From: Norana najaformis
Lineage: Eukaryota; Annelida; Clitellata; Crassiclitellata; Hormogastridae
Assembly (NCBI GenBank): GCA_964023275.1
Contig: OZ029919.1
Location: 35,007,865 to 35,071,864, forward strand
Reading direction: 5' to 3'
Length of the DNA stretch: 64,000 nt
Shown here: in pieces, positions 27,601 to 64,000 of the stretch
Layout: each line of letters opens with the position of its first letter
How positions within the stretch are numbered: position 1 is the first letter of the stretch
The notes under the pieces: generated by a model
Database searches by the model: none
What the model was told of the DNA's origin: nothing
Seen by the model: only the letters and a program-made list of their open reading frames with translations
Made by a program: the position numbers and the translations under genes

Positions 27601-30600
27601 CCCCAGTATGTGTTCCTGTCTCTTCTTTTCAATCACATCGCGACAGTCGTTTGCGCCACACTTGAGCGCAACGTCATCCGCCCGGGCGCCATTCTCGTCC
27701 TCCAGGTTAAAGTCAGCTCCTCGCTTCAACAAGACTCTGGAAAAACAGAAAAGTTTTGCAAATTTATCAGACCACATCCACCATCAAAAAGTCTGTTTGG
27801 TTATATCATGATAACTTTCAAACTCAAAATTTAGCTAACATTTTCTGTCCATAAAAGCAAAAAGGATTAAGGTAACATATTTGTTTAAAAGCCATTACAG
27901 AAACTCCTCAGCACCAAAAAAGTATATTATGGTTAAAAAAATGGTTGCTTAGCGACCACTTACTCGACTGTTTCCAGATGGTGTTCATAGCAGGCATAGT
28001 GAAGGGCGGTCCACTGTTTCTCATGACAACCAAAGTTTGGATAAGCGCCAAGAACACACAACAACACCTGGAGGAAAGAAAACAAGAAAAATAAACTTAC
28101 CTTAATGCCTTACCAGTTTTGTTTTGACTGTGCGCCTGTGAATAAGCTGGTTCCCATGACTTAGCTTTCATTGGGCACTGAAGAAATCTAGAGATTACGA
28201 TTATGGCCACATGTCTTTAGACTGTCACATTTCAGCACCTTTAAAAGGTTCTTAAGAGGCGCTATATAAATGCTGAGACATGAGTAAATGACCAGCACAA
28301 AGTGTCTGGTAGATGTGCAGATGTTCACCACATGATGTGTGAATGGCCTTTCATCAAAATATCAACTCAAGAGTAAAATGCAAACACAACACTACAGGAA
28401 GCACCTGTCACATATCAAGGCCCAGTGAACTTTACACTAACTTACATTACATCCTACTGATTATACGAAGCAAGCGTCACGTAATATTGGCTATAATGAA
28501 CCTTACATTACACAGAATGTAAGTCATGAAATGAACGAACATCAACGAGGACAGTGGCTCCCATGCTGGACGCCAGCATGAGACACGTCAACCCGCTCTT
28601 GTTACGACTGTTGATGTCAGCGTTGAAAAACCGGACGAGCAACAGGAGCAATGGAACCTGAGTAATACCTGACAACCAACAACAATAGCAACATGCTTCA
28701 AATTAATGGAACGAGATGTAGATAAAACAACGGATTCAGGGCAACATGTAACGTCATTTGGCTCAGTTTTTTAAAATAAATATGAAATAAATATGATCGG
28801 AAAACTTACAAGTCATCATGAGAATTAGAATGCTCAAAAACATGAACTCACTAAATCTGGGCATCAGTTTCCATCAGTGGATGCCAACTGTGGTTGGGCC
28901 TTGAACCAGGAAAGTGTTGGGCTCCTGGGCTTTCTCAGTAGCTCGTCCAAAGCTTTGGAATTAAATGCCCAGAACTCTGCATTCTCTCAGTTCTCTTTCT
29001 TCATTCATAGCTAAACTTCAATTCATATGTTTCAGTCTGCTTACCCACTGCAGCCTGACTTCTGCTTTTCCTGCCCTCTCGGATTTTGACCGATCTTCTG
29101 CTATGGATTACAATATTTGAGTACGGCTTCTTTACATGGCATCTCCAACGGATTATAATTTTTGATTACAATTTCACTTGATGCGACCATCAAGTGATGC
29201 CTTGTGCAGTACTAAAACGGCGCTACAGAAGTCATCAGATTAGGTAAGATTAGTTCTAACCTTCTTTGACGACGACATGGATGATTAAGTCTCCCGTGTT
29301 ATCCATTTCCTTGTTTACATCAAACTCCAAGACCTAATTTTAAAAACAAATTCCCCAACGCTTGAGCCAATCACAAAATCAAGACCTCACGACTACTTAA
29401 CATCATCGTTCTGGTCACATCCTCATGCCAAATGTTCTGTTTCTTGCTCTTCGACCATTGCCGTCCTCTGGGGAGCTTGAGATCCCCGCAATTCATTCGA
29501 TGGGTAGACTTAGAGATGCTGCTGTCGTACATGGCTCATCATAGCAGAGACCTTAGCATACACTAGCATATACTATGAGACCTGATTGCACACTATAAGA
29601 CCTTTGATTACAGCTTAGCGTTGAACAGAACATCTGACAACAGATGCAATAGTAACAGGGCAGACAGATCAGAATGCAGCAGACAAGACTCAAACAGACC
29701 AGAAGAAGACGGCCTACACGTGATCCAAATATACCAGACCAGACAAGATTCATGCAAAACTCACCTGAACAAACCAGAAAACACCAGACCCACCAGAAAA
29801 GATCATGTTGTACCCACACACAGAACAGACCATGTTGTACCCACACACAGAAAAGATCATGTTGTACCCACACACAGAAAAGGCCATGTTGTACCCACAC
29901 ACAGAAAAGACCATGTTGTACCCACAAACAGAAAAGATCATGTTGTACCCACACACAGAAAAGGCCATGTTGTACCCACACACAGAAAAGACCATGTTGT
30001 ACCCACACACAGAAAAGATCATGTTGTACCCACACACAGAAAAGGCCATGTTGTACCCACACACAGAAAAGACCATGTTGTACCCACACACAGAAAAGAC
30101 CATGTTGTACCCACACACAGAAAAGGCCATGTTGTACCCACACACAGAAAAGACCATGTTGTACCCACACACAGAAAAGACCATGTTGTACCCACACACA
30201 GAAAAGACCATGTTGTACCCACACACAGAACAGACCATGTTGTACCCACACACAGAAAAGACCATGTAGTACCCACAAACAGAACAGACCATGCTGTACC
30301 CACACACAGAAAAGACCATGTTGTACCCACACACAGAAAAGACCATGTTGTACCCACACACAGAACAGACCATGCTGTACCCACACACAGAAAAGACCAT
30401 GTTGTACCCACACACAGAAAAGGCCATGTTGTACCCACACACAGAAAAGACCATGTTGTACCCACACACAGAAAAGGCCATGTTGTACCCACACACAGAA
30501 AAGACCATGTTGTACCCACACACAGAAAAGACCATGTTGTACCCACACACAGAAAAGACCATGTTGTACCCACACACAGAACAGACCATGCTGTACCCAC

Positions 30601-33141
30601 ACACAGAAAAGACCATGTAGTACCCACAAACAGAACAGACCATGCTGTACCCACACACAGAAAAGACCATGTTGTACCCACACACAGAAAAGACCATGTT
30701 GTACCCACACACAGAACAGACCATGCTGTACCCACACACAGAAAAGACCATGTTGTACCCACACACAGAAAAGACCATGTTGTACCCACACACAGAAAAG
30801 ACCATGTTGTACCCACACACAGAACAGACCATGCTGTACCCACACACAGAAAAGACCATGTAGTACTCACAAACAGAACAGACCATGCTGTACCCACAAA
30901 CAGAACAGACCAGACCCTGATACACAAGAAGCGCTGATTCCCTCGAAACGAGCATCTGACCTGAAGCTTCATGAGAAGTTTCTCGGTGTCAGTGGTGTTT
31001 CTCGCCATCTCAAACATCTTCTGCTTCTCGAGCAGAGTTGGCGCTGACCTTTTGACCTTTGGGGCAACGGAAGACACCAGGTAGGCGCTTGTTAAGAGAC
31101 TGTAGACCTGTGGTGAACAACACAGCTGGGCAGCCGTGCACCCTACAGAAACATCCAATCACTCAGACACCAACTCCACTCTGCATGTGCATATGTGGCT
31201 GCATGACATAACGGAGTTCAGGGTTCAAACCTTCATCATTGCTGCCCATTTTGCACGGGCCCCCACGCCATTCTAGCCCTCCACAGATGAACCATGACAA
31301 TCCCCGTAACATAAAACTGAAACACAGCAGCAGTTGGCATGTGATCCAGCAACCTCTTGTAAACAGGTATGACGTGCTAGCAATCTAGCTATCCAGGTTA
31401 CATCATGTTTGGCCATTATTAAGTGTCACCTGCATTCTAATCAGCCCTTAGTGTTTACTCAGCTCCACAATATGTGACCGAGTGCGCCATCGGATGATGA
31501 CCTTCGTTGACTCTGACTGTTATCATCAACCCTTGGCCGAGATATCGCTGTCTCGAAAAGCAAGACTGGAGTTCCTGGTCAGACGTTGAGTGGCCTATGA
31601 GCCTAAAACTCTGTTCAATACATGAAAGACTGAACAAGAGAGTCTTGAAGTCGTTACGAAGCACTTCAAATGCATTCGTCCGTCCAATCCTTTAACCGCT
31701 TGCAGTAACCATGTAAAGCTACCTGTGATGATGACGATGATGATGAAGATGATGATGATCATAGCAGAAGGAGGAAAAGAAGGATGGTGACGATGATGCC
31801 ACTGCTGATGATTAAGATGTAATTCACGGATAACAATAAGAAAACAAAGAATGGCAATGATGATGCTGGTTAAGTTGATGAGGATCATAAAAGGTGCCAT
31901 ATAAATACCAAATTACATTACATACGTGTGTGTGATAAGGTGATAATGATGACTTTATGATGACAACGTGATTGGTCTTGCCTTGTTTGTCACGGATCAT
32001 TGGCTCGACGCCGGCCTTCATCAGAAAAGTCACAGCCTCTGAATTCTGAGCAATGCAGGCGACATGCAAAAGACTGAAGCCATTGTCAAACGTCTGATTA
32101 ACACCTGACACAGACAGACCAGATGAGCTCTTTAGTGGCACCAAATAAATGACATAATCACAAAACATACACATTGTCACCACTTGCTCCAGATGCTCCC
32201 GAATTAAGTTACTCTTAATGTTCTTGCCATCATTTCTCTTCTCTCACTTCATTCTTTTGGAACATCTAACAGGACAAGAGGTAAGAGAACTCACTGATTA
32301 TATTGAGACTGAGAAGAGCTTTGAGAACGCGCAGTGGACCACACAGAGTAACATCTCGACTGAGCGTCTGAATCAGACTTGAGGAGATGGAACATGTCTC
32401 CAAGAGCAGGGAGTTGAGGCACTGTTCGCTCGGCCATAGCATCCCAAAGTCCACCATTTCATCTCCACAGACAAATGGATTCATCGTCAGCAGCAGTTTC
32501 CAGAACACGTTACAGATTTTTGTCGGAACATCGAGTTCTCCGTATGGAATGCCGACGGCCGTTGAAGAGTCTTCGTAGAAGGTGTTGCATGACTGACACA
32601 GCCGAATGGAACTGTCGTAATCTGACAGTATCACTGACGATCCTGCCACTGAAAGATTCGTCAGCGTGCTGGTTCGGCTTCTGCCATTGTGGCGGTTGAA
32701 AGCACGACTTCTGGGAAGGCGCTCGCTGCTGTAAAACTCAGAGCCGTTACGCTCAAATGCATCTCTTGGGCCCATCATGTGGAAATTGCTCTCCAGACAG
32801 GCTTGAATCGAACCACTCCGGCTCAATCCACTATCTGGACTTTTGTTTGAGAGGGAACCTGGCGGCTCATGAACCGCAATGACAGATCGGTAATTGCGTC
32901 TCGCGTCACGCAACACACTACACGAGGTGCCATAAAATTTAGTCTGGTCTGATTTATTGCCCCGGTAGACACCAGAGTAGGAGATGGCAGCCGAAGTAGT
33001 CAAACCGATGATACAGTATTTTGCTCTTGGGAATTGACCGTGGAGACTCGGCTCCTCTCTCTGCGTCTCAGACGTGTCACGATCCATGGCCAATGAATTC
33101 TGAGATCTTGTGAAGAAGCTATGAGCAGTAGCTGGGATCAT
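18653..33141 (-). CDS. Large ankyrin-repeat protein, about 1175 aa, 21 exons
   Basis: Minus-strand exons: 33141-32295, 32104-31968, 31107-30961, 29333-29261, 28668-28541, 28067-27964, 27736-27580, 27285-27082, 26640-26573, 26047-25930, 25510-25440, 25182-25077, 24624-24550, 23910-23706, 23039-22840, 21965-21826, 21314-21156, 20805-20702, 19964-19753, 19159-19041, 18806-18653 (TAA). They sum to 3528 nt in one frame. Residues 1-282 form one exon without a domain I recognise. Ankyrin repeats begin near residue 290 (GFSLLHVACIAQNSEAV) and recur through residue 930 (for example QWTALHYACYEHH, GQTPLMLAADTG, GDSPLMMAARLG). An acidic Ser/Asp-rich linker follows, then one more repeat pair near 1035-1085 (GFSPLHLAVRLNRKKV). 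No membrane segment, kinase or enzyme motif is visible, so a scaffold role is only inferred. Donors of exons 2 and 5 are weak (GTTGTC, GTTCGT) and uncertain. Confidence 0.82.
20019..20115 (-). mobile_element. SINE family A fragment in an ankyrin-gene intron
   Basis: Reverse complement of family A 5' third, about 50 bp upstream (in gene direction) of exon 19's acceptor. Confidence 0.6.
22055..22180 (+). mobile_element. Family C tail fragment in an ankyrin-gene intron
   Basis: TTTCACTTGAAGCGACCATC, GGCTGATGCTTTGG, GGCGCCGTAGAAGTCCTTAG. Confidence 0.55.
24015..24175 (-). pseudogene. Non-LTR reverse transcriptase remnant
   Basis: On the minus strand a frame reads LYTKLLLFEGYLLSVLLYG followed by AET and then a stop codon. 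SVLLYGAET(W) is the typical C-terminal motif of LINE reverse transcriptases. The tract lies in the intron between ankyrin-gene exons 13 and 14 and is disrupted by stops. Confidence 0.6.
25352..25406. repeat. (CAGC)n and (AATC)n microsatellites
   Basis: Five CAGC units followed directly by imperfect AATC units, in an ankyrin-gene intron. Confidence 0.85.
26140..26540. repeat. Degenerate GGTAA/GGTAG repeats
   Basis: Variants of GGTAAGGTA, GGGTAGGTT and GGCAGGGTA at 26140-26220 and 26410-26540, in an ankyrin-gene intron. A reverse-oriented counterpart (TACCTTACCTTA) occurs at 45040-45180 in a DUOX intron. Confidence 0.6.
26785..26880 (+). mobile_element. Family C tail fragment in an ankyrin-gene intron
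   Basis: TTTGAAGCGACCATCAACCG, GGCGCTACAGAAGCC, then a GATTAGATTAG run. Confidence 0.55.
28107..28198 (-). mobile_element. SINE family A fragment in an ankyrin-gene intron
   Basis: Contains GTTTTGTTTTGACTG, GCGCCTGTGAATAAGCTGGT and the GAAATCTAGAGATTACGAT end. Confidence 0.6.
28860..29247 (+). mobile_element. LINE-like 3' end (family C) in an ankyrin-gene intron
   Basis: Contains a decayed reading frame of the CCAAAGCTTTGG type seen at the C-terminus of non-LTR reverse transcriptases (Pro-Lys-Leu-Trp-like), then an untranslated tail with TTTCACTTGATGCGACCATC, GATGCCTTGTGCA, and the terminal GGCGCTACAGAAGTCATC plus an ATTAG run. The same tail occurs at many sites in the window. Confidence 0.55.
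29804..30912. repeat. 27-bp minisatellite, about 41 copies
   Basis: The unit is CATGTTGTACCCACACACAG plus AAAAGAC, with point variants (GATC, GGCC, GAACAG, TAGTACCCACAAAC). The rare TAGTAC variant recurs at 30263, 30614 and 30857, spaced 351 bp (13 units) and 243 bp (9 units), so blocks of units were duplicated. Because 27 is a multiple of three, five frames stay open for several hundred codons; these are not genes. It lies in the intron after ankyrin-gene exon 3, ending about 50 bp from the donor. Confidence 0.95.
32295..33141 (-). CDS. 5' exon of the ankyrin gene: 282-residue non-repeat N-terminus
   Basis: An in-frame stop lies directly before the ATG at 33141, so translation starts at this Met or at the internal Met 19 (33087). 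Residues 1-180 are rich in Ser, Arg and Gly and look disordered. Residues about 195-282 are ordered in character (CNVFWKLLLTMNPF, then a Leu-rich run ending LRVLKALLSLN) and lead directly into the first ankyrin repeat in the next exon. The exon closes at ATCA|GTGAGT in phase 1. I see no known domain. This single long exon contrasts with the 68-212 nt exons that encode the repeats. Confidence 0.8.
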
Positions 33142-36315: not shown

Positions 36316-36600
36316 AATCGTAATCGTAATCTCGAGATTTCTACAGCGCCCAACGAAAGCTAAGTGGCGCGAATCAGCTTATTCACAGGCGCTCAGTCAA
36401 AACAGAATCGATAGGCAAAAGGGTTCGGTTCCAGGTCAAGATCCAGGAGTCAGACAGTCGGACGGCTACGGTGGATGGTGTTTGAAATTGAAGCGAGAAG
36501 AGAGATGGGGGAAGAGGAAGAATCAGGATAAGATTTTTGGAAAAGAAGTGTTTTCAGTCTTGAGTGAAAGACTTGCGCAGAAACTGAAATAGGTGAAGTA
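36316..36600 (+). mobile_element. SINE family A copy
   Basis: Near-identical to the 13.5-kb and 62.6-kb copies over its length; diverges at the 3' end into a short GTGAGTGGTAGTTG tandem repeat. Confidence 0.8.
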
Positions 36601-36840
36601 TTGGTGAGTGGTAGTTGGTGAGTGGTAGTTGGTGAGTGATATTGGTGATAAGATGGTGCAGGAGAAGAAACAGGACTCGACAGCTTGAAAAGTTTGGATT
36701 TCGATCTTGAGTGAAGAGCTGGAGAAGAGAGGACAAGCGAAGGAGGAGGTTGGAGTAATATTGCTCATATTGGACTAGTTTCTTGGGAAAAGTATTGTAT
36801 TCGGTAATATGCAAATCGGGTCACAGTCTGCTCAGCTTCA

Positions 36841-43700: not shown

Positions 43701-46700
43701 CAGAGGAACTCTGGAGTAAGAAGACTCACTCGATCTTATCTTGATTTGATCAGTTAATCGTTATGATGACTGATCATTTGATACCTCTGTTGATCAACCC
43801 ACTGAATGGATGACTGATTAATTCAATACCTTTGTAGGCATGAGTACTGATTTGTCATTAGATAATGGTGCTTAATAATGCAGAAATAATGCAGATAATC
43901 TGACTTTGCTATAGATGTATTTCATTTTTCCTTCACTTGTGTCAGTGTTTTGTAAATATCTGGACAATGGTGCGGATAGGCATGTAGATAGATAGATGTC
44001 AGTCTGATGGATGGATTGTTTGATGGATCACGCTAAATATGGACCTGCTCTTGAAGCAAAGTGAGAATCTGTTATCACGCAATATGTCCACTTTCTGAAC
44101 AGCATAGACGTTCACTACCCTCACAAGGTTTTGAACCTCCTCACTGAGTCATAAGGTGAGTGATGGACCAATCAGCGGCCGTTTCACTTGTAATGGTTGT
44201 GACAGCGATGGATCGGTTGATGTTTGATGCAGTGGTCGGTGATCCGCATTCTCACCAGAATCCTGGTCTGCTGTTGATGTCAGTCGTTTGGTTCCGATAT
44301 CACAACACGGTTGCCAAGCGACTGGCAGAGCAACATCCAGACTGGAAAGATGAACGTCTCTTCCAAGCCACCAGACGACACGTCATTGCCACTCTACAGG
44401 TATTCAGTTTGGGGTTTCTGGGTCGGGTTAAGCTGCATCTGGGTCATGATAGGTGCTTTCTGATTCAATTCAAGCAGCTTCTGGGTCAGGTTATGTGGTT
44501 TCTGGGTTGTTATACAGTTTCTGGGTTGGGTCAAATGGTTTCACTGTTTCTAGGTCAAGAAAAGTGGTTTTGAATCAAGCAAAATGGTTTCTGTGTCAGG
44601 TTAAGGAGAGGTTCGGTATCCTGTTGTATGTGCTAATTTCATGCTTTGAGCTTCTGTAAAGCAGTGCTGTATGTATTGATGCCATGCGACGCAATACAGA
44701 ACTTGCATAAGACAGTAAGTCATTTTCTGTTCGTGCAGAATGTCATCATGTACGAGTGGCTGCCTGCGCTTCTCAACCAAGACATTCCGCCCTACACAGG
44801 TTACTTGATTAGAAGCCCTTTTTCTTACAAATAACGGACAGCATAGAGGTTTTGCCCATCAGATTCATTCATTCATTCGTTTCATTTTCCATACGACGTG
44901 TGATTTACTAATCCAAGTTGGATGAAGTCAATATTTCATTGCCTTCAGTAGACACCAACCCCTTGCCATTCAGATTTATTTCAATTGCCCCATGTAAGAA
45001 CTGTTGTCAAAAGAATAGAAAAGGTGTTACTAGACCTATCTTACCATAACTAACCTTTATACCTTACCTTATCTTGCCACACCTTGCCTTACCTAACCTT
45101 TCCTTAAACTACCATAGTTCACCATGCCCAAGCATCCCTTACCATAACCGAACCTCATTTTACCTGCCTACCAGTTTTATGTTGACTGAGCGCCTATGAA
45201 CAAGCTTTCTTTGGGTGCTGTAATCCCAACTGAAATCTTGAGATTATGATACCTTATGTTACCATCATTTGATGCTTTGTACATAATGGTGACACTGGCT
45301 GTAACAGAAGCCATTGGATTAGATTACAGTAACTGCGTAATTGTAATGAGGGTCTTACAGGTTACAAGAGCAGCGTGCATCCAAGCGTGACGGGGATGTT
45401 TGAGGCAGTGGCTATGAGATTTGGCCATTCGCTCGTTCCTCCAGGGCTCTACCTACGGTCAGGAGGATGCTTCTTCTTTCTCATTTATCATTAATAACAT
45501 TAGTAAATAATAAATCATAAGAATAAAATCATAATCTATTTTTGGTATTTATGTCAAAAATCTAACTTGTTTAATTCTAATTCCAAAACCAGAGAGATTG
45601 CGGATATTTGAGAGACATTTCTGTGGACAGAAGATGCATGGTATTAAATGAGTCTCAGTGGATTTGAAGAAGGTGAGGGGTCAGAGGTTAATGAGGTCAC
45701 TGCTCTGGGTTGAGAATTCTCAGTTATGTTGAAGTCTTCTTCTTTTCAGAGGTAAATCTTGTGCATTTGGAAAAAGTGACGATGGACCTGCAATCAGACT
45801 TTGCAATTCCTACTGGAACTCACAGGTATGCCTCATACCATTCCCTCATTCTTCCCTTCATCTGTCGCTCCTGCTTTTCCACCTCATCTCTTTTCCTGCC
45901 TGCCATCCTGCCTGTCCTGCCTGTCTGCCTCCCTTTGTCACCGCTGGCAGTTGCAACATTGTGGCACAGTCTGTCTTCAGACCATTCAACAACTGAATAT
46001 GTCTGCTTGATCTCGTTGTTTACAAGTGGTCTTCTTTACAATACGCTACATTTTATGCCTTTGCACTGACGTGGTTACGTTGCTGATGATGATGTGGAGG
46101 AGGAGGAGGAGGAGGAGGAGGAGAAGGGAGTAGAAGAGGAGGAGGATGCAGTTTAAATGTGTTTGAATGTATCTGTAGAGAATAATCCTGAAGTACGGAG
46201 TGGAAGACTTGATGCGTGGAATGCTGTCACAGCTGTGTGAAAGAGAGGACCACATCATGGTCGACGATCTCCGAGGTAAGTGCCTCGCAACGTCGCAAGG
46301 ATCACACGTTCGTCATGTTGGACAGATTGTTGGTCAAGAAACGGTAATGTCATATAATAGGCCACATTTTATTACTTCATATGTTTTGTCAGCAGTACGC
46401 CAGAGACTCAGTATAACCCACTTCATTATCACACGCATTCTGATATAAGATGGTCAGGAACATGGATGTCAAAGTTAGTTCAGTTATAGAAAATTTGTTA
46501 TAAGATGACCTTGTTGAAAGGTGATTCTTGATACGGTTCCCTAAAGACAGAGTGGTATTGGGTTTCCGGTGTTTTAGTTTCATGGTTGTCCTTTGGAAAT
46601 ACTAGAAGCATTGTTCTTATTTTGGATTTCGTTCCATGATAGGGAAAGTGTTTGGTCCGTTGCACTATACGAGACATGACTTGGCCGTCTTGACCATCAT

Positions 46701-49700
46701 GAGAGGCAGAGACCACATCCTTCCGGACTACAACAGCGGTCGCGTCGCCTACGGACTGCCTGCAATCGAGAACTGGTCTGACATCAATCCATGGCTGCAC
46801 AAAGTTAATCCACAGGTAGAGTGGGTGAAGTTTTTGGAGGTAAGGTGTTGCAGTCGGAGTTAGCGAATTAACAGAGATTGTGTTTATAAATATCAGTCAA
46901 CAACAGATTGCGTTGACACAGCATATCATCACCTTTGCCTATCTGTACAGCATATTCAAAACTTTATCAGCTCACCATCCACAGGGACCTTACATGGCGT
47001 GGCGCCCATTCAAACGGGTGAAGGTACTCACCCAATCAGTTCATTGCAAAATGAGCAGGGTCAAGGCCATACGACGGCTGTAGAAAACCATTTACATTTA
47101 CATGTCTCTGACTGAGAAGGAAAGCAAACGTTTGGCTGAGTTCTGCAGTTTTCACTTAAGATCTTGTTTCACTGACCTATTAGACTTTGACTGGATTTTT
47201 TTGTTGAATCATGATTTGGACAACGGTTTCGCTCGAAGCAACCATCAGTTGATGCCTTGTGGGTTGTTATGACGGCACTGTGGTAGACATTGAATTAGAT
47301 TTCCATGTCATATTTAGGAGGCACATGCAGGTTTACAGCTTGACCACTCCATGAGAATGTGTAGTGCTTTTGTTGAGTTTATTTTCTGAGCATTGGCCGG
47401 CTGTATTCACTCTTAAAGTGATGACCTCTACTTTGACGTGCTGTTTGCTCTAAAAATTTACTTATCCTATGGTTTTAATTAGATCTGTATTTGTGTTAGG
47501 CCATTGAGAGACTGAGGGATGTTTACAACGGGTCGTTGAACCTGGTTGATCCGTACCCTGGCGGACTGATGGAGGCCACTCCACACAGCATAGGACCTCT
47601 TTTTACAGCCGTCATCTTGGATCAGTTCCTCCGAATTCGAGATGGAGATCGGTTCTGGTTTGAAAATCCATCCAACAAGTGAGAAGAAACTTCCTTCAAA
47701 ACTGATTCAGCTGATATTTTCTTATCAGAATCACTTGCTTATAGTTTTAATGAAAAACTCATTAATTTTGATTAACAGAAACTCGGCCAGGTCAGTGTAA
47801 GTACAAGGTCATGTTGGGTTAATGTGATGAAACAGGCCAACGTGTTGTAAGTACGATGTAGATGTTACGCAAATGTTATGTAATGCCAATGTTATTGTGG
47901 ATTATCTCATTGTTATTCATTGGTGCAGTGGCAGACCGGAAAATTCATTTTTCCCTTTTGGGTTCAAATCCTGCTATCTCTTGTGAAATTGACAACTTGT
48001 TGTCAAACCAGGTTACCCTTGAGAAAAGGTTGTCCGGTTGTCATGTTTGGACTTTGGGCTACTGGTCTTTTGAGTCCAGGGCCACGTCTGTCTCTGATCA
48101 CGAATGTTGATATAGGCAGCATTTCAAACTTAAGAGAACACTTTTCCTTATTTGAATGTTTTGTTGAACTGCTCTTCTAATTTTGAGTTGTGCAACATTT
48201 AAATGGCTTGAAATTCTTCTACAAACAACTGTAGATTGTTTTCGAAAGAGGACGTTCTGGCCGTACGAAAACTCCAGTTCCGTGATGTTCTTTTGGCATC
48301 GACTCGGATCAGTTCTGAAGACCTTCAGGAGAATGTTTTCTTCTGGAGACGAGGTGACTCTCGAATCTTCTAATCTGGCAACCGCTATAGCACACAGTGC
48401 TTTGATTGATAGCAGCCTCAGAGTGATACCTTGGGCTGTGCTCGTAATCTCTTAGATGGATTCTGACCAGATCTGGATGAGATCTCGGACGAAGGCTGTG
48501 TTGGAACAGCAAACTGGATAACCTGAGTGACGACAGAGAACCAGTAGACAGAAATTCCTAAACTGAAAATGCACAGAAGCCTGATGCTCACGTTCATATT
48601 ATGTGTGTGAATCTCAGCATTTATAAAGCCCCTTTTAAGGACCACTCAAAAACGCTGCCAAAATAGCTGTTTAATTAAAAGACTTTTCTTAAGATAGGAT
48701 GAGAATTTTTAAGGATCTGTTGATTTCCTTGTGGTCTCGGACTGATTTCAGTTGCACTCAGAGTTGTATTCTGTTATGGATTAGATTATATTAGACGAAT
48801 TTGTGGGATTTCTTGTAAGAAACTAATTGCAGGCGATCCGTGTCCTCAGCCAAAGCAGTTGGAGCAGGGTGACCTGGAACCGTGCTCTCCACATCAAGGA
48901 TTCGACTATTTTGTCGGAAGCGAGATTTCCTACATCACTGCATTCACCTGCCTCGGTCTACTGCCATTCGGTGAGTATGCACGCATACACGAATCGGTCA
49001 TCAGATGACTGATGTTATCACCCAGAACCTGATTTCTCATTTAAAAAATAGATGACAAGTGATTGGATTACCTTCTCAGGATCCTACTTGCTTACTGTTT
49101 ATGAAAACTTCCGTATTTGGTGTTTGGCCAGAATTTCACATGAACGAGTTTACCAAACTTAAAAAGATGGTTTGCTGTAAGAAACACTATGTCTTTTACT
49201 TACAGTTAATGGCAGCATTGATGAGCAACGATAACAACAAGATGGCAACAAGCAGCAACAATAACAACATAAGGCAAGAATGAGCAACCATGCGATTGAC
49301 ATGTGTTATCTTTTCAGTCTGCATTCTGATTGCCTACCTGATTGCCAAACTGAAGCAGTTCTTAAACGAACGAAGAATCCAGATGGTACACCTGAAAGCG
49401 TTTGGCAAGTCGTCAAATGGCACACCTGGAATGTATCAAGGTAAGAAAGAGGATCACCTGTGTCAAGTGCACAAAAGTACAAGAAACATCTCCTCAAGAG
49501 AGAGAACTACAGATTTTCCCCTTCATCGAGTATTTGACCGAAAAATATCCATTTAACTATGGATTATTTACCTGGATTATTTTCAGATAATTTTCAGATA
49601 ATGATGAAATCTGTTTACCTTGAGTAAGTAATGCTTACCTTTGGTAATTAGTTTTTACCTTGAGCAGTTGATTTTGTACCTTGAGATTGACAAAAGACCA

Positions 49701-52700
49701 AAACGATAATTTGAGATGTTATTTCATGTGTCTAGCTCTGGAATGGCTGGGAAACCGAGATGCTGTACGTCACGTGGAGCTGCACCTGTCACGTGATCAG
49801 TGCACATTGTGTGTCGTTTCACATCAGAAAGTGGTTCTGCGAGCGGTTGACCTTTCGCGCCATTCCAAACTCATGATCTGGTTGTCATCCGATAAAAATC
49901 GCAACCATCTCTCTGTACACGTTCCTCATGAATACGATCTCGTAAGAATATCTTGCTTGTGCACCTTATTATAAGTATGGTACTGCAATGTAAATGTACA
50001 CGTTTCTATATAGCGACCGTAAGGCCTCGACCCTGCTCCGTTGGCACTGAATTAATCGGGTGAGATCCTTCACACCGCTGCCATTTTAATGGGTGCAATG
50101 CCACTTAAGGTCCCCGTGTACAGACCATGGTAACCCGAGATTCAAATCTCTGAAGTAAGCTACAATTGGGTTGCAAACCGGCATCCTCGCGCACAGAGGC
50201 GCTTTAATGTACAAGTTAACCAATGTAGCTGACCAGGCCTGTACACAGTTCCTGAGAGATTTATATTGCACAAGTTCTAGGAAAAATCGTCACTAGTGCT
50301 CAGCATAAAGAGTTGCTGCAGCTGATTATGTTGATGTGAGCATTCCTAAATCACAAGACATTTGAATCACTTTTCAGTATGCAATCGACTTCTGTTGTCT
50401 GCGTCAGGTGTTGCGCTTTCGATCGGAAAGAGATCGGACACAGTTTGTTTCTGGACTTCGAGATTTGCTAAAACACAGCGAGAAGAGTCTTCTTGTTCAT
50501 GAGAATCAGACGAAGGACTTGTTCGCACGTTCAATGACGAGACAGAAGAGACAGGAGCTGCTCACAGCTTTCTTCCGCAGCATCTTTGCCGAGGTTTAAT
50601 CAATCTGCCTTCAGGGTTTTTTCTATTCAAGGATCGTGCCATTAAGCACTGTTGTTGAATGATGGAGGGGTAACCTTCACTTACCTTAGGCACTTACTTT
50701 ATGAACCGTAAGCATTTGTCTCAATGTACTTTAGGCATTTAGTTTATTTTACTTTGAATCACCGTAGGCAGTTAACGTACTTTTTGGTATATAATTTATC
50801 TTACTTTCACTTACCAAAGGCATTTAGCTTATCTTACCTCAGGAAGTTAACTTATCTTAAGCTGCTATTGTGTTACTGTTACGGACGAAGCTCTTATTCA
50901 GTGAAGCGCTTTTACTGATCCAACTGAATATTTCTGGCCGTCTGAGTTCTGCCTGATGTTGATAGTTTTTCCTGTGGCCTGGTTTCACTGAGGCCTCAGT
51001 AGCAGATGTCCAGTTAAACCTCTTAAAACTGGGTGTGATTTCAGTCCTTACTGACCTTTGGACTAAGTCTTACCTGGAGATTTCTGATCTTTTTAACGTT
51101 GTTCTTTGTTAATTCAAAGATGTCTTATACTCGTTGTGGAATGCAAACTTGTGGTGAAGGCAGAATCTTGAGATATTAGCGGCAATTAGTGTTTTGAATA
51201 TTGTTTTGTGTTTTCTTTTGTACAGTTGATGTTGCTAGGTCTGTTGGAGGATTTGAGGGGCGAGTGTTGTAGCGTATAATATATAGGTGATGACCTTATG
51301 TTGTAGGCTCATAATGCTATGACCTTTATAATGTCATGACCTTCTGTTGTAGGCGCATAATACTATGACCTTTATAATGTCATGACCTTCTGTTGTAGGC
51401 GCATAATGCTATGACCTTTATAATGTCATGACCTTCTGTTGTAGGCACATAATGCCAAGGAAATCAAGCATCCAGATGAGCTGGAGTTACACCAGTGCAA
51501 GGAAATCGTGGACTGTGAACTCACACGAGTAAATAACTAAACTGAAGACACTTCTATAGCGCCATTAACATAATATGCTTAAGGCGTCAGTCGATGGTCG
51601 CTTCAAGTGAAATCGTAATCAAAAATCATAATCTGTTGGAGAAGCCCCATAGAATTCAGATGGGTCAGAGAAATCGGAAGTCAGGCTACAGTGGATAAAC
51701 AATTTGAAAGAGATGAGTGTCAGTGTAAGAAAGAGGATCACATGAAACAATGTGAAGGACGTCAAAGAATTGACAAAACGAACTGAACTGGGACATGAAT
51801 TCCTCCAAAGCTTTGGACCTTCTAGTCATTTAAATGGCGCCTTTAGAGTGCTTCATTTTTATTTTCTTCCATCTGTAGACCGAATTTGCAGAGGCACTTG
51901 CGATGAAGACAGACTCGATGTTTGTGAATCAGATGTTTGCTTTGATTGATCGTGATGGAAACGGTTACATCTCCTTCCGAGAACTCCTCTATGCTGTCCT
52001 GCTCTTTGCCAAGGGTATGCTTACTTACTTACTTGTTCTGTTTCCTTAAACACAGCAGCTCTTGTGCTTCTAATATATTATCATCATTAATTAATATATC
52101 CTCCTCCTCTGCTTCTAGCTTCCTTTCCTCATTCTCCTCTTCCTCTGTCTCTTTCTCTGTCTCCTCCATTTCATCCTCTTCTTTCATCTATTCCTCCTGA
52201 TTCTCCTCGTCATTGTCTTTTCTTCTTCATCGCCATTTCTTGATTTGTCTTTCTTGAGGACCTTGTTCTGTATCTGTCAATCATTCTTGGTTGTAATTTT
52301 CGGCTGTATTTGGACAAATCTGCACAGGAAGTTGTGAAGACAAACTGCACATCCTGTTTCTCATGTACGATCGAGATCAGAGTGGATCGCTGAGTCGTCA
52401 GGAAGTCACCGAAATGATCAGGTCACGTCTTTGATCTTCACAGTCCTTGCCAATGTTGCTCTTTTATGGAATTTTTGACTAAGCAATTTTAAAAACTGGA
52501 AAAATGAGCGCTTGTAATCATAATCGTAAGCTCGAGACTTCTACAGCGCTAATGAAACCTAAGTCACGGGAACCAGCCTATTCGCAGAAGTCACAGACGA
52601 TAGGCAGGAAGGATTGGATTCCAGGTCAAAATCCAAGAGTCAGGCAGGCAGACAGTCAGACGGCTACACTGGGTGGTGTTTGGATTTGAGCCGGAAAGTG

Positions 52701-55700
52701 AAACAAAGGGAAGAGGATGGTAGAGTGTGCTGTTGATATAAAGTCTCACTTCTACAATAACCATCAGTTGATTCCTTGAGTGTTCAGAGGATAGTGGCAC
52801 TATAGCAAATCTCTAGATTTGATTAGAGTAGAGATTGAGGTATCTAGATTAGATTTGATGAGAGTTGGTGCTCTTGTGATTATGATTTTGTTGGTAAATC
52901 AATGTTATTTGCATATGTGGGTCATGAAGGTCTCTGATGGAGATGGCCAATTCAAGCCTCAGTTCCGACGAGATAGAGCAACTCGTTGACAAGATGTTCG
53001 TCTCTTCCGGTCTGGAGCGGACGAATTCTCTCCGGTTTAAGGACTTTGCTCGTGTCCTTGGTGACAAGATGGAAATGCTGTGGGACGTCTGTCTTGACTG
53101 GAAGGGTAGGTCACCTGCGTAGGTCACCACCAGAGCAGGAAACTCAGAGGAAACAGGACTCTGTAAATATCAGTTTTAGATTTCTTCAGTTGCTGCTGGT
53201 TGGTTGTTTTGCTGGCCGTGTTTCTGGTGCCTGTGAGAGACTCTTAAACGATGCTCCCTAAAATTGCTTTGATGCCCAGTCTGAATGTGCATAGTCTGTG
53301 TTGTTATTCTGAGAAGAAACATGCCATCATTGTGAGAATCTAGGGTGCATTATAAATAGCAATACTTACTGACTTACTGGCTTACTTTCCTAAACTGATG
53401 CAAAAGTAAGTAAGTAACTTGTGGGAACCAGGAAACAAACACAGCTGAACTTTGTTATCAGTACTTCTGTGATACGTATGGCCTTTCATATTAATTGTTA
53501 GCCCCGTCATCTAAATCATCGTACAGTTGGTTAACTGAGGTTTATTTGAAGAAGTTAAATTGTTTGAGCCTTCGTTGTTCAGACTTTGTTGCTGGTGTAA
53601 GATCTGTCTACTTTCAGGAACAAAGATTTGTCTACCAAAACAAAAGTCTGGCAGCAAACGGTAGGAGACTGATTTATTATTTTTTATTATTATTATTATT
53701 GTTATTTTTATATTATTATTATTTATGCATTCATTAAGTAACACTATGTGTGAGCACTTTACTTTCATAATGCTACTATTGTACTCCTTCTGACCCTGAA
53801 AGGATGGAGGGACGAGTTGTTCCACAAGTGGTCATCCATCCAAGTCCTAACTCAGCTTCATCTGTCGTAACTCCATCCTGCCTGCCATTGTTTAGCTGGT
53901 GCTGTTGGCAGTGTTCATTGGAAGATGCTGATGTTGATACATGATGTGTGCAACTAGGAAGGACAGAGAGTCAGAGAGCAGAACGAAGGCACCGCACACG
54001 TTTGGAGCAGCAACTGAGCCAAGCGCCTCATCGTTCACTAGACGAGCGCTCTTTCTTCAGAATCTCCATCACTATGTCGAAAACCATCGGCAGCAAATCG
54101 TCTACCTCTTCATCTTCTTCAGCGTCTGCATTCTGCTCTTTGCCGAGCGATTCTACAGTGCGTCTGCTGTTAACTGTTTGTTCTTCTTGTTGGTTTTAAG
54201 TGAGAATGTTCAACTTAGGAAATTGTTCTAGCAGTTCTGTTGAAATCTGAAGTCTGTCTACCTATTAATTCTGGCAGAACATTTCATACAACGCCTCTTA
54301 AGAGCGCCTCAGCAGCACTATTACTATTGAACAGATGGAGAAAATGTACCAGCTTATACACGAGCGCTGCGTCAAGTCAGAAGGGTTGTCCAGAGAAAAC
54401 ATGTGAAGAACAAGATCCAGTTGCAGGGAGACCAGAGAGGGAAGGAGACCAAGGAGCTGATATGGTGGGTGGTATTTAGGCTGAGATAAATGGAAAGACA
54501 GCAGCTGGATCGATCAGAGGTGGGACTTCAGTATAAGGTACATTTCATACATGATAAATATACGTGTGGTGCAAAAATAAGAACATGTAGTATTTGTTTA
54601 AGGTTTGTACTCTGAATTGCTTCCAACAACGGGGATCCAGGTAAGGCATACCCATCCCCCCTTAAACTTAGCTGGCAGATGTGCCCCATAGATCTGCTCT
54701 TGGCTTCATGTATCGGATGGCATTGGTCGTCTTCTGTGACTAGGGTATGCAGTGGAACAGGAACATCGTGGCTGGCGTAGCATTGCCGGTTATGGCGTCA
54801 GTCTAACGAGAGGCGCAGCGGCTGGAATGTCGTTCACGTTTTCCCTTCTGCTGCTGACGATGTGTCACAACATCATCACGAAACTACGTGAAACTGTTCT
54901 CAACCTCTACATTCCGTTCGACTACAATGTCGAGTTTCACAAAGTAATCGCCTACACTGCACTCTTCTTCTCAGGTGAGGTCCTAAAGGCCAATCAGTCA
55001 CAAATGGTCTTTGGTCTTGAGACTAATCCGTCTAATCTAATCTACTGACTTCTTCAGCGCTGTTGTGATAATGCACAAGGCGTCAATTGATGTAGTCAGA
55101 AATCGTAATTGGATTGACAATGTCATGGCATGGACTGGCCTGTCGGGCACGATGATGGTGAACGCTACGTGCGACAGATGGCGTTGGGAGAGGATAGTCC
55201 ATACATGTAGTCAACCGTCGCGAAGCGACGATGGCGTTGTGACATGACATGACATGATAGAAATCGTAATCTGTGTAACATGAAATAACAAATGGTCTTT
55301 TGGGGCCTAGAGACCGGTTGATAACACTGGGTGATAACATGTGGTCTCTTTGATCTTTGAGACCTTTAAATGTTAAACAACAAAAAATCTCTGTAATCTC
55401 AAAGACCGATAGATCTGTATGGCAAGAAAGAGCCGAAGGTTTATGAGAACAATGATAATGACTAAAATGATGATGATGACGACGACGACGATGATGATGA
55501 CATTTTTAGTGTGTTGACTGGTTTCAGTACTGCACATCATTGGCTACTGCTTCAACTTCTACCATGTTGCCACTCAACCAGTGGAATTCCTGTGCATCTT
55601 CGATGAGATCTACTTCAGGTGATTTGCCATCTGACCACTTGTCGCAGAGAATTTTAGACTCTTATTCAAGTGACTCAGTTGGTGACTTTGAATTAGTTTT

Positions 55701-58700
55701 CTTCTGCTTCATGAATTTTAAATGATTTCAGAGTGCTGCTTCCCAGCGCTTTTCCAGGTAAGACGTCTTACCTCTTAAAAATTGGTCATTACTTGTCTCA
55801 CTTGGACTTCTTACTAATAATAATAACAGTAAACAGTAAATATTCTGCACCGTTGTCTAATGCTGATTATTAAGCGAGATTCTGAAATGCGAGGTTCATT
55901 TTAAACATGAAATGACAAAGCGTAGGAAATGTTTTGTATTTTCAGGTCGGATTTCCTGCCCAAAATCCACTATTGGTTGTTTCAGACCATACCAGGTATG
56001 ATCACAGACCGTGTTGGTTCGTTTGTTTGTTTCTCACCTGCAAGATGTAGTAATAATGCAATAAAGATAGTAAAGTAATAAAAAATAAACATTTTCTACA
56101 CTTCTTCAGAGATCTGGTAGATGGCCATGTTTCAGCAAAAGTCTGAGTAATTTTACAATCAAATGTAATATTTGTGTACCTGGGTATGTGTGCATCTATG
56201 TATATGTGTGTTTGTATTTATGTATGTATGTATGTATGCATGTTAGCTTGCATGTTTGTATCTGGACCTTTTTATAGCACCAGTTATTTACCTCACAAAA
56301 GCACTTTCTGCTAGTCTGCCTGATGTTAGAGCTGTGGAGGAACAAGAAGGTCATTTGTAGATGAAAGATAACAAAGTCTGATTTCTGTGGACAGGTTTCA
56401 CTGGGATCCTCCTGGTTGTAATCATCTGCGTAATGTACATCTTTGCGACTGCCACGGCCCGGGTGTACATCTTTAACGCATTCTGGGTGACCCACAAGCT
56501 CTTCTACGCGCTCTACGTAATCACGGTCCTGCACGGGTCGGTCCGGGTCGTCCAGGAACCATACTTTGCTTACTACTTGGTCGGACCCGCTCTTCTCTTC
56601 ACCTTCGACAAACTCGTCTCTCTTAGTCGCAAGAAACGCGAACTCACTGTCGTCCATGCTGAACTACTGCCATCAGGTCGATATTATTTTATTAATAGTT
56701 AAAGTAGAGTAAAGTGAGTTTAATAACAGAAGATCCGTAGCTTTAAGGTCAGCGCAAGAGGCAGCCACGAGTTTGAAGCATTAGCAACTTCTGCAGGTAG
56801 GCAGTCCTCTCCCTCGCTGTCCGATCTTCTCACCATCAATGTGTGGTCAGTGTACTCTAATTTTACAGCTGATTTCACCAGAGGGAATAGAAATCTTTAA
56901 GTGTCTTTCTCACATGTTGGCAGTTTTAACCTCTGACCTCTAAGTTGACAGTTCGCTGAAACATTGACCACTAGACTATGCACATGCCAACAATACTGGG
57001 GAGAATAATATTACTATCATTATATTTACTATTATAATTGTTATTATCATGTTCATGAGGCCACTAGTCATAAATACCTTATTATGAGCCAATCCCAGGC
57101 AGACCATCTGCATGCTAGTTTGCACAGAATTGTCCCTTCTGGGTAAAATGCCTGGTTGCTTCCCATTTCTCTCTTCACCCCTTACCCTTTCCAATCGCCC
57201 ATTCCCTCTTTTTTCCCTGTCCTACTCCATCTTCCTGTTTTGTCCCTTTGCTGTCCCTCTCCAGCTCCCTTTCCTTGGCCAAGCGAAAAGAAATTACTTT
57301 GTTCTCTTAGTTTTCACATGATGCCACCAAATGTTGTATGTGGCATCAGGGACCACATGCAGACACATCTAAGTATATGGCATGGATATTATAATATATA
57401 GTAATATGGTTATGGATATTACCCTATATAGTAATAATAATAATAATAAGATGGTGTTTGATTGCATCTTCTTTGCACTGACAGATGTGACGCTGTTGGA
57501 GTTCAAGCGACCTACGAACTTTGACTTTCGTTCGGGTCAGTGGATACGTCTGGCTTGTGCTCCGCTTGGAAAAGACGAATACCACTCGCTGACGCTCACC
57601 TCAGCTCCTCACGAGCAGACTCTGTCGGTTCACGTGCGAGCCGTCGGGCCGTGGACGACCAACCTACGCAAAGTCTTTGATCCAGATTCGTTTCGTGGAA
57701 CCTCCTACCCAAAGGTCTGGCTCTATTATATTATATTCCTCTTTTTCCCCTTAAAATTCCAAACACCATCCACCACAGCCGTCCGACTGCCTGTCTGCCT
57801 GCCCGACTCTTGGATCTTAACCTGGAACCGAAGTGCTGAACCCTTCTTGCCTATCAATTTTGCTTTGACTAAGCGCCTGTGAACAAGCTGGTTGCTGTGA
57901 CTTGGCTTTTGTTAGGCATTGTAGAAATCTTGAGTTTATAATTGTGATTACAAACAAAACCGGTCAGTATTACAGAAGATTGGGACGTATTTTAGAGTCT
58001 GTGAGAGGATTGTAAGAGGTGCTCTGTCAATGATTCATACATATACAAACATACATACACACATACATGTGTGTATGTATGAATGCGGTTCTGTATAAAA
58101 CATGATGATGGTTTGTAGGTGTACGTTGATGGTCCATTTGGCGCTGGCCAACAGGACTGGATAGACTATGAGGTGTCGGTGTTGGTTGGCGGTGGAATCG
58201 GAGTGACGCCATACGCTTCCATTCTCAAGGACTTCGTCTTCCTGACATCCGTCAAGAACGCGTTCCGGATGAAGTGTCGCAAAGTGAGTCACTGAGTCCT
58301 TGTGGTCTGAAATTTGGCCAACGTTTCATCTGGGCGAATTGCATGGCTCACTGCAAAATGACTTTTCTGCTGCATTTAGAGTTTCAGTTGTACCCTATAT
58401 ATGTAAAGCCAGCTGACCATGAACAGTTCTAGTCTGACGGTCTGACCAGAGAAAGGCAGTAGTTCTGTCCAGAGGACTGTTGTCGTTTTGGAATGCGGTT
58501 TTTACTTACAAGTGACCATCAGTTGATGCCTTTGCCTTTGTATGATAATGGCGCAACAGAAGTTTCCAGATTAGATTAGATTAGATTCCAAGCTACACAT
58601 CACATCTTAGTTGTGTCGATATCTAGGTAATTACGTGCAATTTCTAACTGCACTACGAATCGCGTGTGTTGCTGATTGTTGGAAAGTTTCTAGATGAGTT

Positions 58701-59948: not shown

Positions 59949-60612
59949 GAAACCGCCTATTAACACTGCTTTCACATATGTTAAACAAACTTGGTGAAAA
60001 TATATCATGCCGTGCCAAGTGACAAGCCAAAACAATTCATGTACCATGCATAAAGATTTTGCTTGTTCGAAAATGCTGCCATATTATAGCAGGTGTTTAT
60101 ATAACCAGTTGATAGAAACTTCCGGAGAACAGTAAATTTGTACACAAATATCAAAAGATGAATTCGTATACAGAGCGCAAATCAGTTGCATGATGAAAGT
60201 TTTGTAATCTGAAGCAATTTCATTGCAATTTTAATTCTGCAGTCAACTAATTTGAATTTATTTAAATAGGCGATTGCAACTGGGACAAAATGGGAAAATA
60301 GAAATAACCAATTTCTTAAAAGGCATTGTTATGTAAAACTGTTGTTTACAGCATCAAGGTGGTGAACAACCTAACCTGATAAATTCATTGAAAAAATGAG
60401 CAGGGTTGAGGCCATACAGTTGCTATAGAAAAACGTGTACATTTACATTTAACATTTTCTCATTTTACAAACTGTTGATTTTGATGGTCTAAAAGGCATT
60501 TCATATCGGTCCAGATTCGTGTAGATAATCTACGTAGTCATTCATTGCTGTCTTCTTTCCCAGAAACCCTCACTTTCAATCTTGTTAACACGTAACACAA
60601 CACGTCTCCTGA
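59949..60612. other. Convergent 3' region of DUOX and RHNO1
   Basis: Both 3' UTRs must end in or overlap within 664 bp. No plus-strand AATAAA is evident. A minus-strand AATAAA-type signal (TTTATT on plus, near 60256) could serve RHNO1. A SINE B fragment lies at 60356-60450. Confidence 0.5.
60356..60450 (+). mobile_element. SINE family B 3' fragment between DUOX and RHNO1
   Basis: GATAAATTCATTG, GAGCAGGGTTGAGGCCATAC and the GTGTACATTTACATTTAAC tail identify it. Confidence 0.6.
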
Positions 60613-62155
60613 TCAAAGACATCCCTTCAGTTGCTTCTGGCGGTATGTCAATCCATGATAAGAAAGTGGAGTTTCTTTAACCAGAATGTTCGACTCCTTC
60701 ATTGGAGGTGGTGGCGTTTCGATGGTTACTGTAGACAGAATTTGGCGTGGTAACCACAGCAATGGCTGACAACCGGGAACTGTTATTTTGGTACCTGCAT
60801 TTGGCGATTCGTGGCATTTTTTTGCCCGAACAGTCTCATTCTTTGAAATATCCAGAGTGTCGTCTAGTAAGAGAGACCCATCCTGCTGTAAGAGCATACT
60901 TCCGTCGAGTAGATTAATGTGTGGCAAACAGCCAACAAAGACTGAGTCTTCTTTTGACTCAAATGACAAATGCCTAAGAGACACGTCATTGGAAATAGGT
61001 GGCGCTACTGGCGTATTTACTTCTAACACAGCTCTCTCGGCAACTGTTTCAGACAAAGGCAAGTGCTCAGCACTTTTCAAACTATTGCTGCAGCCCATTT
61101 TATCTGTTGTCATCTGAAAAAGGCGTCTGGATAAGTTCTGCTTAAATGTGCTGTCTTTTGCTGATGGCGGAGTGGTTTTGTGTTCTACATTGTTTGGTGG
61201 AAGGTCGTTCTTCGCTTGACTGTCGTCTGGTGTTCGCACATGCAAATGTTTCCCAATCAGCATAATATCTGCAAAAAAAATCTCTGTGGATTGGTTGTCA
61301 TCTGCTCCATCATCCTCTCTTCGACTCGTTTGCAGTGGTGCTGATCTTCTCTGGTGATCTTCCCGAGCATCGGCCAAGCGATCGCATTCACCATTAGATG
61401 TTGACTCCTCGTCTGAACTTTTTCTCACAACTTCAGATAATCCAGTAAGAACAAACTTGAGCGGTCTGAACGTCAGCCGGTGCCTGCATCGTGACTTGGG
61501 GCCTTGCTCTGCATTGGTGAATCTGCCAACAATAGAGGAGGAGTTGAGGGATGGTGCTCTGCCATGGCCCTCTGGTGCCTGGCGACGAACTCTGCGTCTA
61601 ATGGTTTCTCCCCTCAGTAACTTTCCTTCGAACTGAGGCGAAACCTAAAACGCAGACAGTAAGTGCTTCCGTCAAATCCATTACTGGTGAAAAAACAACT
61701 GAGTCATACATTCTGAATGTTCACATCAACCGGACACATTTCGCCTTGACACTCATTCAAAACAAGCAACATCAGGAAAGGCTCTTGCCCAGGAAATCTA
61801 TTCTAGTGTAATTACTTTTATAGTGCCGTTATCATAATTCACAAACATCAACTGAAAACCATTCTAGAGAAACCTGTACAGACTCTTTCCAAAAAGTTCG
61901 TAAGTGTATGACGTTAAAAATTAAAAAAAAACAGGTTCGACATCTTGACTAATTATTCTAGTCGGTCTCAGTCGAGTTTCAAGAAGCCGTACGAACCCAT
62001 GAAGAGGCAATCTGCTCAACTGGGACAGTGTCTGCGGTGATTGGATAGATGCTGCCGTGGACAGGCGTCGGTAGGTCGCGCGGAGCATTCAGTGGGCTTT
62101 CGGCGAAGACCAGCGGTCGCTTCTTGGCCGACCGCTTCGCCCGTCTTCTTGGCAT
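60613..62155 (-). CDS. RHNO1: RHNO1 (RHINO), 9-1-1 clamp-interacting nuclear protein, about 396 aa, 2 exons
   Basis: Exon 1 is 62155-61997 and exon 2 is 61644-60613 (TAG-side stop at 60613). The phase-0 junction creates SSWVSPQFE at residues about 52-59; human RHNO1 has a near-identical SWVSPDF at the same distance from the start, the segment that binds the RAD9-HUS1-RAD1 clamp. The N-terminus MPRRRAKRSAKKRPLVF matches the basic start plus LLF motif of the family. The C-terminus NILVKETPLSYHGLTYRQ matches the conserved VKDTP...YG end. RHNO1 supports ATR-CHK1 signalling with TOPBP1 and polymerase-theta-mediated end joining. At about 396 residues it is far longer than the roughly 240-residue vertebrate protein; the extra length is low-complexity middle sequence. 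It is convergent with DUOX, 664 bp between stops. Family recalled from memory, not searched. Confidence 0.8.
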
Positions 62156-64000
62156 ACCCTTAACAATGCCCAATTCATCGTCATCATATGTAATCGCATA
62201 AATGTGTAAATATATTTTTCGAAATGACTATCGTAAATATTAGCAGCACTATTTATTTAAAACGCCGTCGTTTTAAACATTTTCATCTCAAATGGAATTT
62301 TGAACTCGCGGGTTTGTTCTCACGAAATAGCCTCGCTTCTAAACAAACTAAAAGCTAAACTAATCATTAACACCATATTGTAAGATATAACGACGCTATA
62401 TATAAACTAATTATTTTTTAATATGTGAACAAGTGTTGTTTAGAATATAATTATTTAAATTGAATTAATTATACGTATTACTGACTGCATTCAGGAAAGT
62501 ATTGATAATCTAAGGTCATTGCGACTACGGTAGCAAGTTAGTAAGTATGCAGGTTTCAATTGCTTATTTAATCGTAATCTCGAGATTTCTACAGCGCCTA
62601 ACGAAAGCTAAGTTGCGGGAACCAGCTTATTCACAGGCGCTCAGTCAAAACAAAATCGCTAGGCAAAAGGGTTCGGTTCCAGGTCAAGATCCAGGAGTCA
62701 GACAGTCGGACGGCTACGGTGGATGATGTTTGAAATTGAAGGGAGAAGAGCGATAAGGGGAAGAATCAGGATAAGATTTTTGGAAAAGAAGTGTTTTCAG
62801 TCTTGAGTGAAAGACCTGCGCAGAAACTGAAAGAGGTGAAGTGTTGGTGGGTTCGTACGATTGACCAGAGAACTGTCGCAATTCTGGCGGGAGTTTATTC
62901 CAAAGGGGTGGTGCAGCTATGGCTATGGAGCGATTTCCAAATTTTAAAACTTGTATGGTTTAATGTTATAAATTAGCCATTCTCTGCTTACGGATTGAAT
63001 AGACGATGAAGTGCATTTCAAATAACATCTTGTAATAATAATAGCCTCTGTATTACCCTAATCTTAAAAGTTTATAAAAAGATAAGATGTAAATACAAAT
63101 CTCCCAAATTCAGCGCCACAAGTAGCGTCAGAGAGACCAGCTTACTTATCGACGCTATAGCAAAATTAAGTCCGCAAGAGCCAGTTTATTTGGTCAATTT
63201 CGGTGTCAGGTCAGAATCAAATGGGGTCAAGCCGGCGAGACAGCATGGGATATGTTGGAAATCGTCCTGGGCGGTTGGATAGTGAACAGCTGGCGAATGC
63301 AAGAGGATTGCAGTTTGAATGGCGCTGAAAGTAACAGCTAAATTTTATAGTGGATGCGCCGAAGGGATATTAAGCCAGTGAAATGATTTGAGCTCTAGGG
63401 TTACGCGGTGATGTTTAGGAGTTTTGGTAACTGCATTCATGAGCTTTCATGCCCTATTTTCATGTAGTCCGAGTGAAAAGAACGGGTTTTCTTTTCTTCT
63501 GCACTGCATTCAGTTTCACAAAACAAACCAGGACTTGAACTTGGGCCACGACAGTGAAAGGAATTGTATGCACACATGTACGTACGTATGTATAATTATA
63601 CTATATGTATATACCTGTTTATATAGCGCCTTTCGTGAAACTATAAAGCGCGACTTCTGCTCTTTTAACTACAAGCTTTGTTTTTTTTTAAATTAACATG
63701 AAAGAAAAAATGAATGAACAAACAAATGATCCATTCATTCATTAATTCATTCACTGAGTGAACAAATCAATTTTCTTTTACATTACACGAATTGCTGTTA
63801 CAACCTGCAAGTGATATTCAAGGAAAAGACCAGATTTTCGGAAAACCAAAATGAAGTCATTTATTTTTAGATGGTGATGAAAGCAGTTACTGCAGAAACA
63901 AGTTTCAACTCTTCAACAATAAAACAGTCGTAAAAACACCAACTGAACGCCTTAATAACAACATATCCTTGACAAGAATGCAACTGAATAAAACAATAGA
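62156..64000. other. RHNO1 upstream region and right-edge spacer
   Basis: 62160-62560 is AT-rich and probably holds the RHNO1 promoter. A full SINE A copy follows, then the 63105-63235 unit shared with 36160-36290 (GTCCGCAAGAGCCAG, GAGAGACCAGCTT). No exon of a neighbouring gene is recognised. Confidence 0.5.
62567..62898 (+). mobile_element. SINE family A, full-length copy
   Basis: Matches the 13.5-kb copy with only scattered substitutions and one short deletion near 62760. High identity implies recent spread. Confidence 0.8.

Follow-up and report, generated by a model that had tools for sequence, protein, structure and literature searches.

RHNO1 (RHINO) is a DNA-damage adaptor that joins the 9-1-1 checkpoint clamp to TOPBP1. 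The contacts of the human protein are made by short motifs: K13, L16 and F18 are anchors in the RAD9 front pocket (PMC12907562), 56-WVSPDF-61 sits on RAD1 in a crystal structure, with conserved basic residues remarked between the RAD1 and RAD9 sites (PMC10937111), and the peptide PVLVKDpTPEDKYGI, phosphorylated at Thr202, binds TOPBP1 BRCT1 (PMC6175577). A role in Pol theta-dependent end joining (MMEJ) has been reviewed (PMC12426944). Outside vertebrates, ZTF-8 of C. elegans, a zinc-finger protein of 687 aa that shares 8% identity with human RHINO, is described as a functional homologue acting through the RAD1 homologue MRT-2; the same paper lists a predicted Nematostella relative and reports a rescue in C. 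elegans by human RHINO (PMC4199516). A literature search covering mainly open-access papers found no paper joining RHNO1, invertebrates and 9-1-1.

Here we analyze a two-exon gene on the minus strand of a 64,000-nt stretch of DNA (hereafter, the window), which, judging by its predicted product, we assign with high confidence to animal RHNO1; the encoded RHNO1-like protein is very probably an ortholog, and the animal is probably an invertebrate. The features of the gene, in the direction of transcription, are as follows.

61997-62155, minus strand: coding exon 1, residues 1-53, from the ATG to ...SSW
62105-62125, minus strand: first KYxxL+ (RAD9 front-pocket) motif KKRPLVF, residues 11-17, a consensus match
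61630-62002, minus strand: RAD1-binding motif SWVSPQF, residues 52-58, with the intron falling inside it (coded by 62002-61997 and 61644-61630)
61645-61996, minus strand: phase-0 GT-AG intron of 352 nt, GTTCGT...GTTTTAG
60613-61644, minus strand: coding exon 2, residues 54-396 and the stop codon
60864-61391, minus strand: possible exitron-like segment, an in-frame 528-nt GT-AG pair whose removal leaves 220 aa
60952-60987, minus strand: weak candidate for a second RAD9-binding motif, DVSLRHLSFESK, residues 273-284
60649-60690, minus strand: putative TOPBP1-BRCT1 phospho-ligand motif NILVKETPLSYHGL, residues 372-385, in which Thr378 takes the position of human Thr202
60257-60262, minus strand: AATAAA, a poly(A) signal some 350 nt past the stop codon

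The exon coordinates proposed in an earlier, sequence-only reading of this DNA were confirmed. Translation starts at the ATG at 62155, the last base of exon 1 is 61997 (...TCATGG), and the stop codon ends at 60613; the joined coding sequence of 1191 nt (159 + 1032) is a multiple of three and encodes 396 aa with no internal stops. W53 closes exon 1 and V54 opens exon 2, so that splicing is needed to produce SWVSPQF, and the motif SWVSPQFE is formed exactly at the exon junction, as had been claimed. Directly upstream of exon 2, its frame is shut by the acceptor's own TAG, and the open frame of exon 1 begins at 62227, with no ATG ahead of M1. The length of exon 2 was stop-free in 0 of 20,000 dinucleotide-model sequences, both with its own content and with local non-coding content. 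Four out-of-frame ATGs at 62178-62199, immediately upstream of the start, count against the gene model. By a simple score, the donor GTTCGT is weak (5/9 consensus positions), and the acceptor tract contains 10 pyrimidines of 14. The weak donor, together with a repeat, possibly transposon-like, located about 560 nt upstream, could be taken as a sign that this RHNO1 copy is decayed or non-functional; however, the intron is kept, 396 codons are open and a poly(A) signal is present, which makes decay very improbable.

Comparison of the spliced protein with Pfam-A (hmmscan) yielded a match to PF15319, RHINO (E = 3e-9; the score of 37.7 bits exceeds the curated cut-off, which is 25), the single family matched up to E = 10. 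This is the profile search that the sequence-only reading had proposed as a check and, along with the intact RAD1 motif and the matching C-terminal motif described below, it bears out the assignment of the gene to the RHNO1 family made there. Residues 1-214 align to positions 1-185 of the 239-position profile, and the C-terminal tail lies outside the alignment. Exon 1 with the intron retained scored 21.5 bits, under the cut-off, and exon 2 alone had no match in Pfam, whereas the spliced residues 1-130 reached 36.4 bits; the rise from the intron-retaining form to this fragment and to the full protein supports the exon junction. Residues 1-80 alone scored 35.7 bits, with an aligned stretch of 1-62, so that nearly all of the profile signal is N-terminal. 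Residues 61-396, 81-261, 262-396 and 331-396, searched separately, matched nothing in Pfam, and thus the profile places neither the second RAD9 motif nor the tail. The reversed protein and one shuffle likewise gave no Pfam match. A phmmer search of the PDB, with E allowed up to 10, was empty, and there was no match in NCBIfam at E up to 1, where little was expected because the models name prokaryote proteins. A scan of viral and prokaryote contigs with exon 2 produced pattern matches in 1 viral and 65 genome stretches, of which tblastn confirmed 0.

The N-terminus carries KKRPLVF, which fits the group 1 consensus of the KYxxL+ motifs that bind in the RAD9 front pocket (K/R-Y/F/K-x-x-L-x-hydrophobic); among 200,000 shuffles, a fraction of 0.0064 show this pattern in their first 25 residues. 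The basic N-terminus with RPLVF (residues 13-17) had been pointed out from the sequence and is indeed there, and WVSPQF (residues 53-58) corresponds to the 9-1-1-binding motif named in that reading; the reading is to be corrected for the basic N-terminus, which corresponds to a mapped RAD9-pocket site (PMC12907562). None of 2000 shuffles scored as high as WVSPQF against the human RAD1-binding peptide, and WVSP.F appeared in a fraction of 2.5e-5 of 200,000 composition shuffles. The 49 residues that follow (59-107) include 12 K/R and 4 D/E.

At the other end of the protein, NILVKETPLSYHGL matches the human peptide around Thr202, PVLVKDTPEDKYGI, better than any of 2000 shuffles did. Positions -5 to -3 relative to Thr378 retain the hydrophobic triplet, as ILV (ILVKETP, 373-379), and the bare TOPBP1 pattern is found in the last 40 residues in a fraction of 0.0068 of shuffles. 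The VKETP noted earlier is present (residues 375-379), and what had been called a conserved tail does match, but can be named more specifically as the counterpart of a phospho-ligand for TOPBP1-BRCT1 that has been mapped in human RHNO1 (PMC6175577). The RAD9-pocket pattern, the RAD1 motif and the TOPBP1 motif follow each other in the human order. Separately, LVFAESP (residues 15-21; 62093-62113, minus strand) contains a hydrophobic triplet, fits the TOPBP1 pattern in its loose form and overlaps the first RAD9 motif; the overlap is possibly a phospho-switch, possibly chance.

These matches rest on about 62 + 14 residues, and the other stretches, searched alone, have no detectable homology, which leaves room for an unrelated disordered protein in which short 9-1-1 and TOPBP1 motifs arose by convergence. 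Such convergence is nevertheless hard to credit, given that the score exceeds the curated family threshold, with the alignment starting at the very first residue, and that both end motifs were placed with 0 of 2000 shuffles equal. The further proposal that only the two ends are constrained is in keeping with the detectable homology, which lies in residues 1-80 and 372-385.

Between these ends lies a long middle section. Codons 81-261 are stop-free in 3 of 20,000 models with their own dinucleotide content and in 0 of 20,000 models with local non-coding content, and not every segment has a clearly coding-like base composition across the three codon positions, so that the coding case for the middle rests on the open frame. 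The main transcript might also drop 61391-60864 as an intron or exitron, to encode about 220 residues, near the 239 positions of the Pfam model. This is the sole GT-AG pair in exon 2 above the site thresholds, the search having required donors of at least 7/9 and weaker pairs being unlisted, although the accepted intron itself has a 5/9 donor; the pair spans a multiple of three, its donor (7/9) is better than the accepted one, and an exitron-like construct, one residue short, scores 40.9 bits against RHINO, above the full protein. A shorter gap may be all that lies behind this gain, because another deletion (1-80 + 262-396) gains as much, with 41.4 bits. These constructs, and two more that scored 38.6 bits (1-80 with two C-terminal pieces) and 36.1 bits (1-130 + 292-396), served to place the second RAD9 motif discussed below. 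The acceptor tract of the pair is modest (10/14), and an intron need not stay open, as codons 81-261 do. On balance, removal of this segment from the main transcript is unlikely.

The second RAD9-binding site of human RHINO (88-99, TSKFPHLTFESP) finds its best place at residues 273-284, yet 151 of 2000 shuffles equal it; next in rank is 10-21, where the first motif lies, with 349 of 2000 shuffles as good. Residues 277-283 (RHLSFES) within this stretch had been picked by eye beforehand, and a match of at least 5/6 to HLTFES occurs in 37 of 20,000 shuffles, but the whole-peptide comparison is less favourable. RHRLTF at residues 107-112 had been favoured first and was given up; LTF occurs at 86-125 in a fraction of 0.0077 of shuffles. 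The stretch 273-284 is kept as a weak candidate and not claimed as a second RAD9 site, because against the RHINO profile a form without these residues scores about the same as a form that has them. In human RHINO, the spacing from the RAD1 site to the second RAD9 site, from the residue numbers, is 26 residues (PMC10937111), and a clamp-bridging (9-1-1 polymer) model has been proposed (PMC12907562). As the long middle places 273-284 well beyond the RAD1 motif, one RHNO1 molecule could conceivably bridge two 9-1-1 clamps over about 214 residues, an arrangement that we regard as distinctly unlikely; if true, this animal would have a natural long-linker version of the human model.

If the motifs work as in human cells, RHNO1 would clip onto the loaded 9-1-1 ring via RAD9 (residues 11-17) and RAD1 (residues 53-58), Thr378 would be phosphorylated by a proline-directed kinase, and the phosphorylated protein would recruit TOPBP1 through BRCT1, aiding ATR signalling. 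Most simply, the additional residues between the modules, some 160 in number, would be a longer, freely diverging linker.

Ten window ORFs were searched against Pfam, of which four matched families of the DUOX type, three on the minus strand matched ankyrin repeats and three had no match. The DUOX-type matches are the following.

44160-44570, plus strand: animal haem peroxidase (Pfam)
56382-56699, plus strand: ferric reductase-like domain (Pfam, below its cut-off)
57373-57879, plus strand: FAD-binding domain (Pfam)
58119-58295, plus strand: NAD-binding domain (Pfam)

For both DUOX-type ORFs tested, the best PDB match is Dual oxidase 1, with 45 identities in 82 aligned columns for 6wxr and 28 in 54 for 7d3e; together with the plus-strand Pfam matches, this identifies exons, at 44160-58295, of a DUOX-type gene arranged tail-to-tail with RHNO1. 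The two chains are mammalian, and the identity values are consistent with a non-mammal source of the DNA, probably an invertebrate. In vertebrates, RHNO1 is in head-to-head synteny with FOXM1; here, only about 1.8 kb of the window remain upstream of the RHNO1 start. Ankyrin-repeat exons of a separate gene occupy 19627-23940 (minus strand), perhaps to 27321, with the match at 26998-27321 below curated cut-offs. At 29794-30912, a 27-bp minisatellite (about 41 copies, 94% matches) is open in several frames on both strands and therefore gives rise to long spurious ORFs. The peptide SVSAQVFHSRLKTLLFQKSYPDSS is common to 62714-62959 and 36453-36764 (both minus strand), which marks these as a dispersed repeat, one that may resemble a LINE reverse-transcriptase tail. 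Scans of the window for Rfam families (gathering thresholds) and tRNAs gave no match.

The predicted protein thus resembles human and other vertebrate RHNO1 (RHINO, C12orf32) in its basic N-terminus with the RAD9-pocket pattern, in WVSPxF, in the C-terminal hydrophobic triplet followed by the xx-TP TOPBP1-BRCT1 motif, and in the order of these elements. It differs in the long middle, in the weakly placed second RAD9 motif and in length: 396 aa compared to the 239-position model, a yardstick by which the excess of about 160 residues given in the sequence-only reading stands. Past Thr378, 18 residues remain, fewer than the profile leaves and fewer than in human RHNO1. With ZTF-8 the protein shares a probably non-vertebrate origin and a length greater than that of human RHINO; the site mutated in ZTF-8 reads SSLCPNA (PMC4199516), and this protein keeps SWVSPQF. 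The view that RHNO1 is usually discussed as a vertebrate factor fits some papers (PMC10937111), but others report animal homologues outside vertebrates (PMC4199516, PMC6175577), so finding the gene in an invertebrate is no novelty as such. Retention of the RAD9, RAD1 and TOPBP1 contact motifs amid unrecognizable intervening sequence points to the short motifs as the working parts, and agrees with the 9-1-1/TOPBP1 adaptor having arisen early in animals; the gene alone gives no date for the Pol theta end-joining link. Compared with the RHNO1 proteins already described, this gene adds one more case from which to judge which parts of RHNO1 matter, rather than a new kind.
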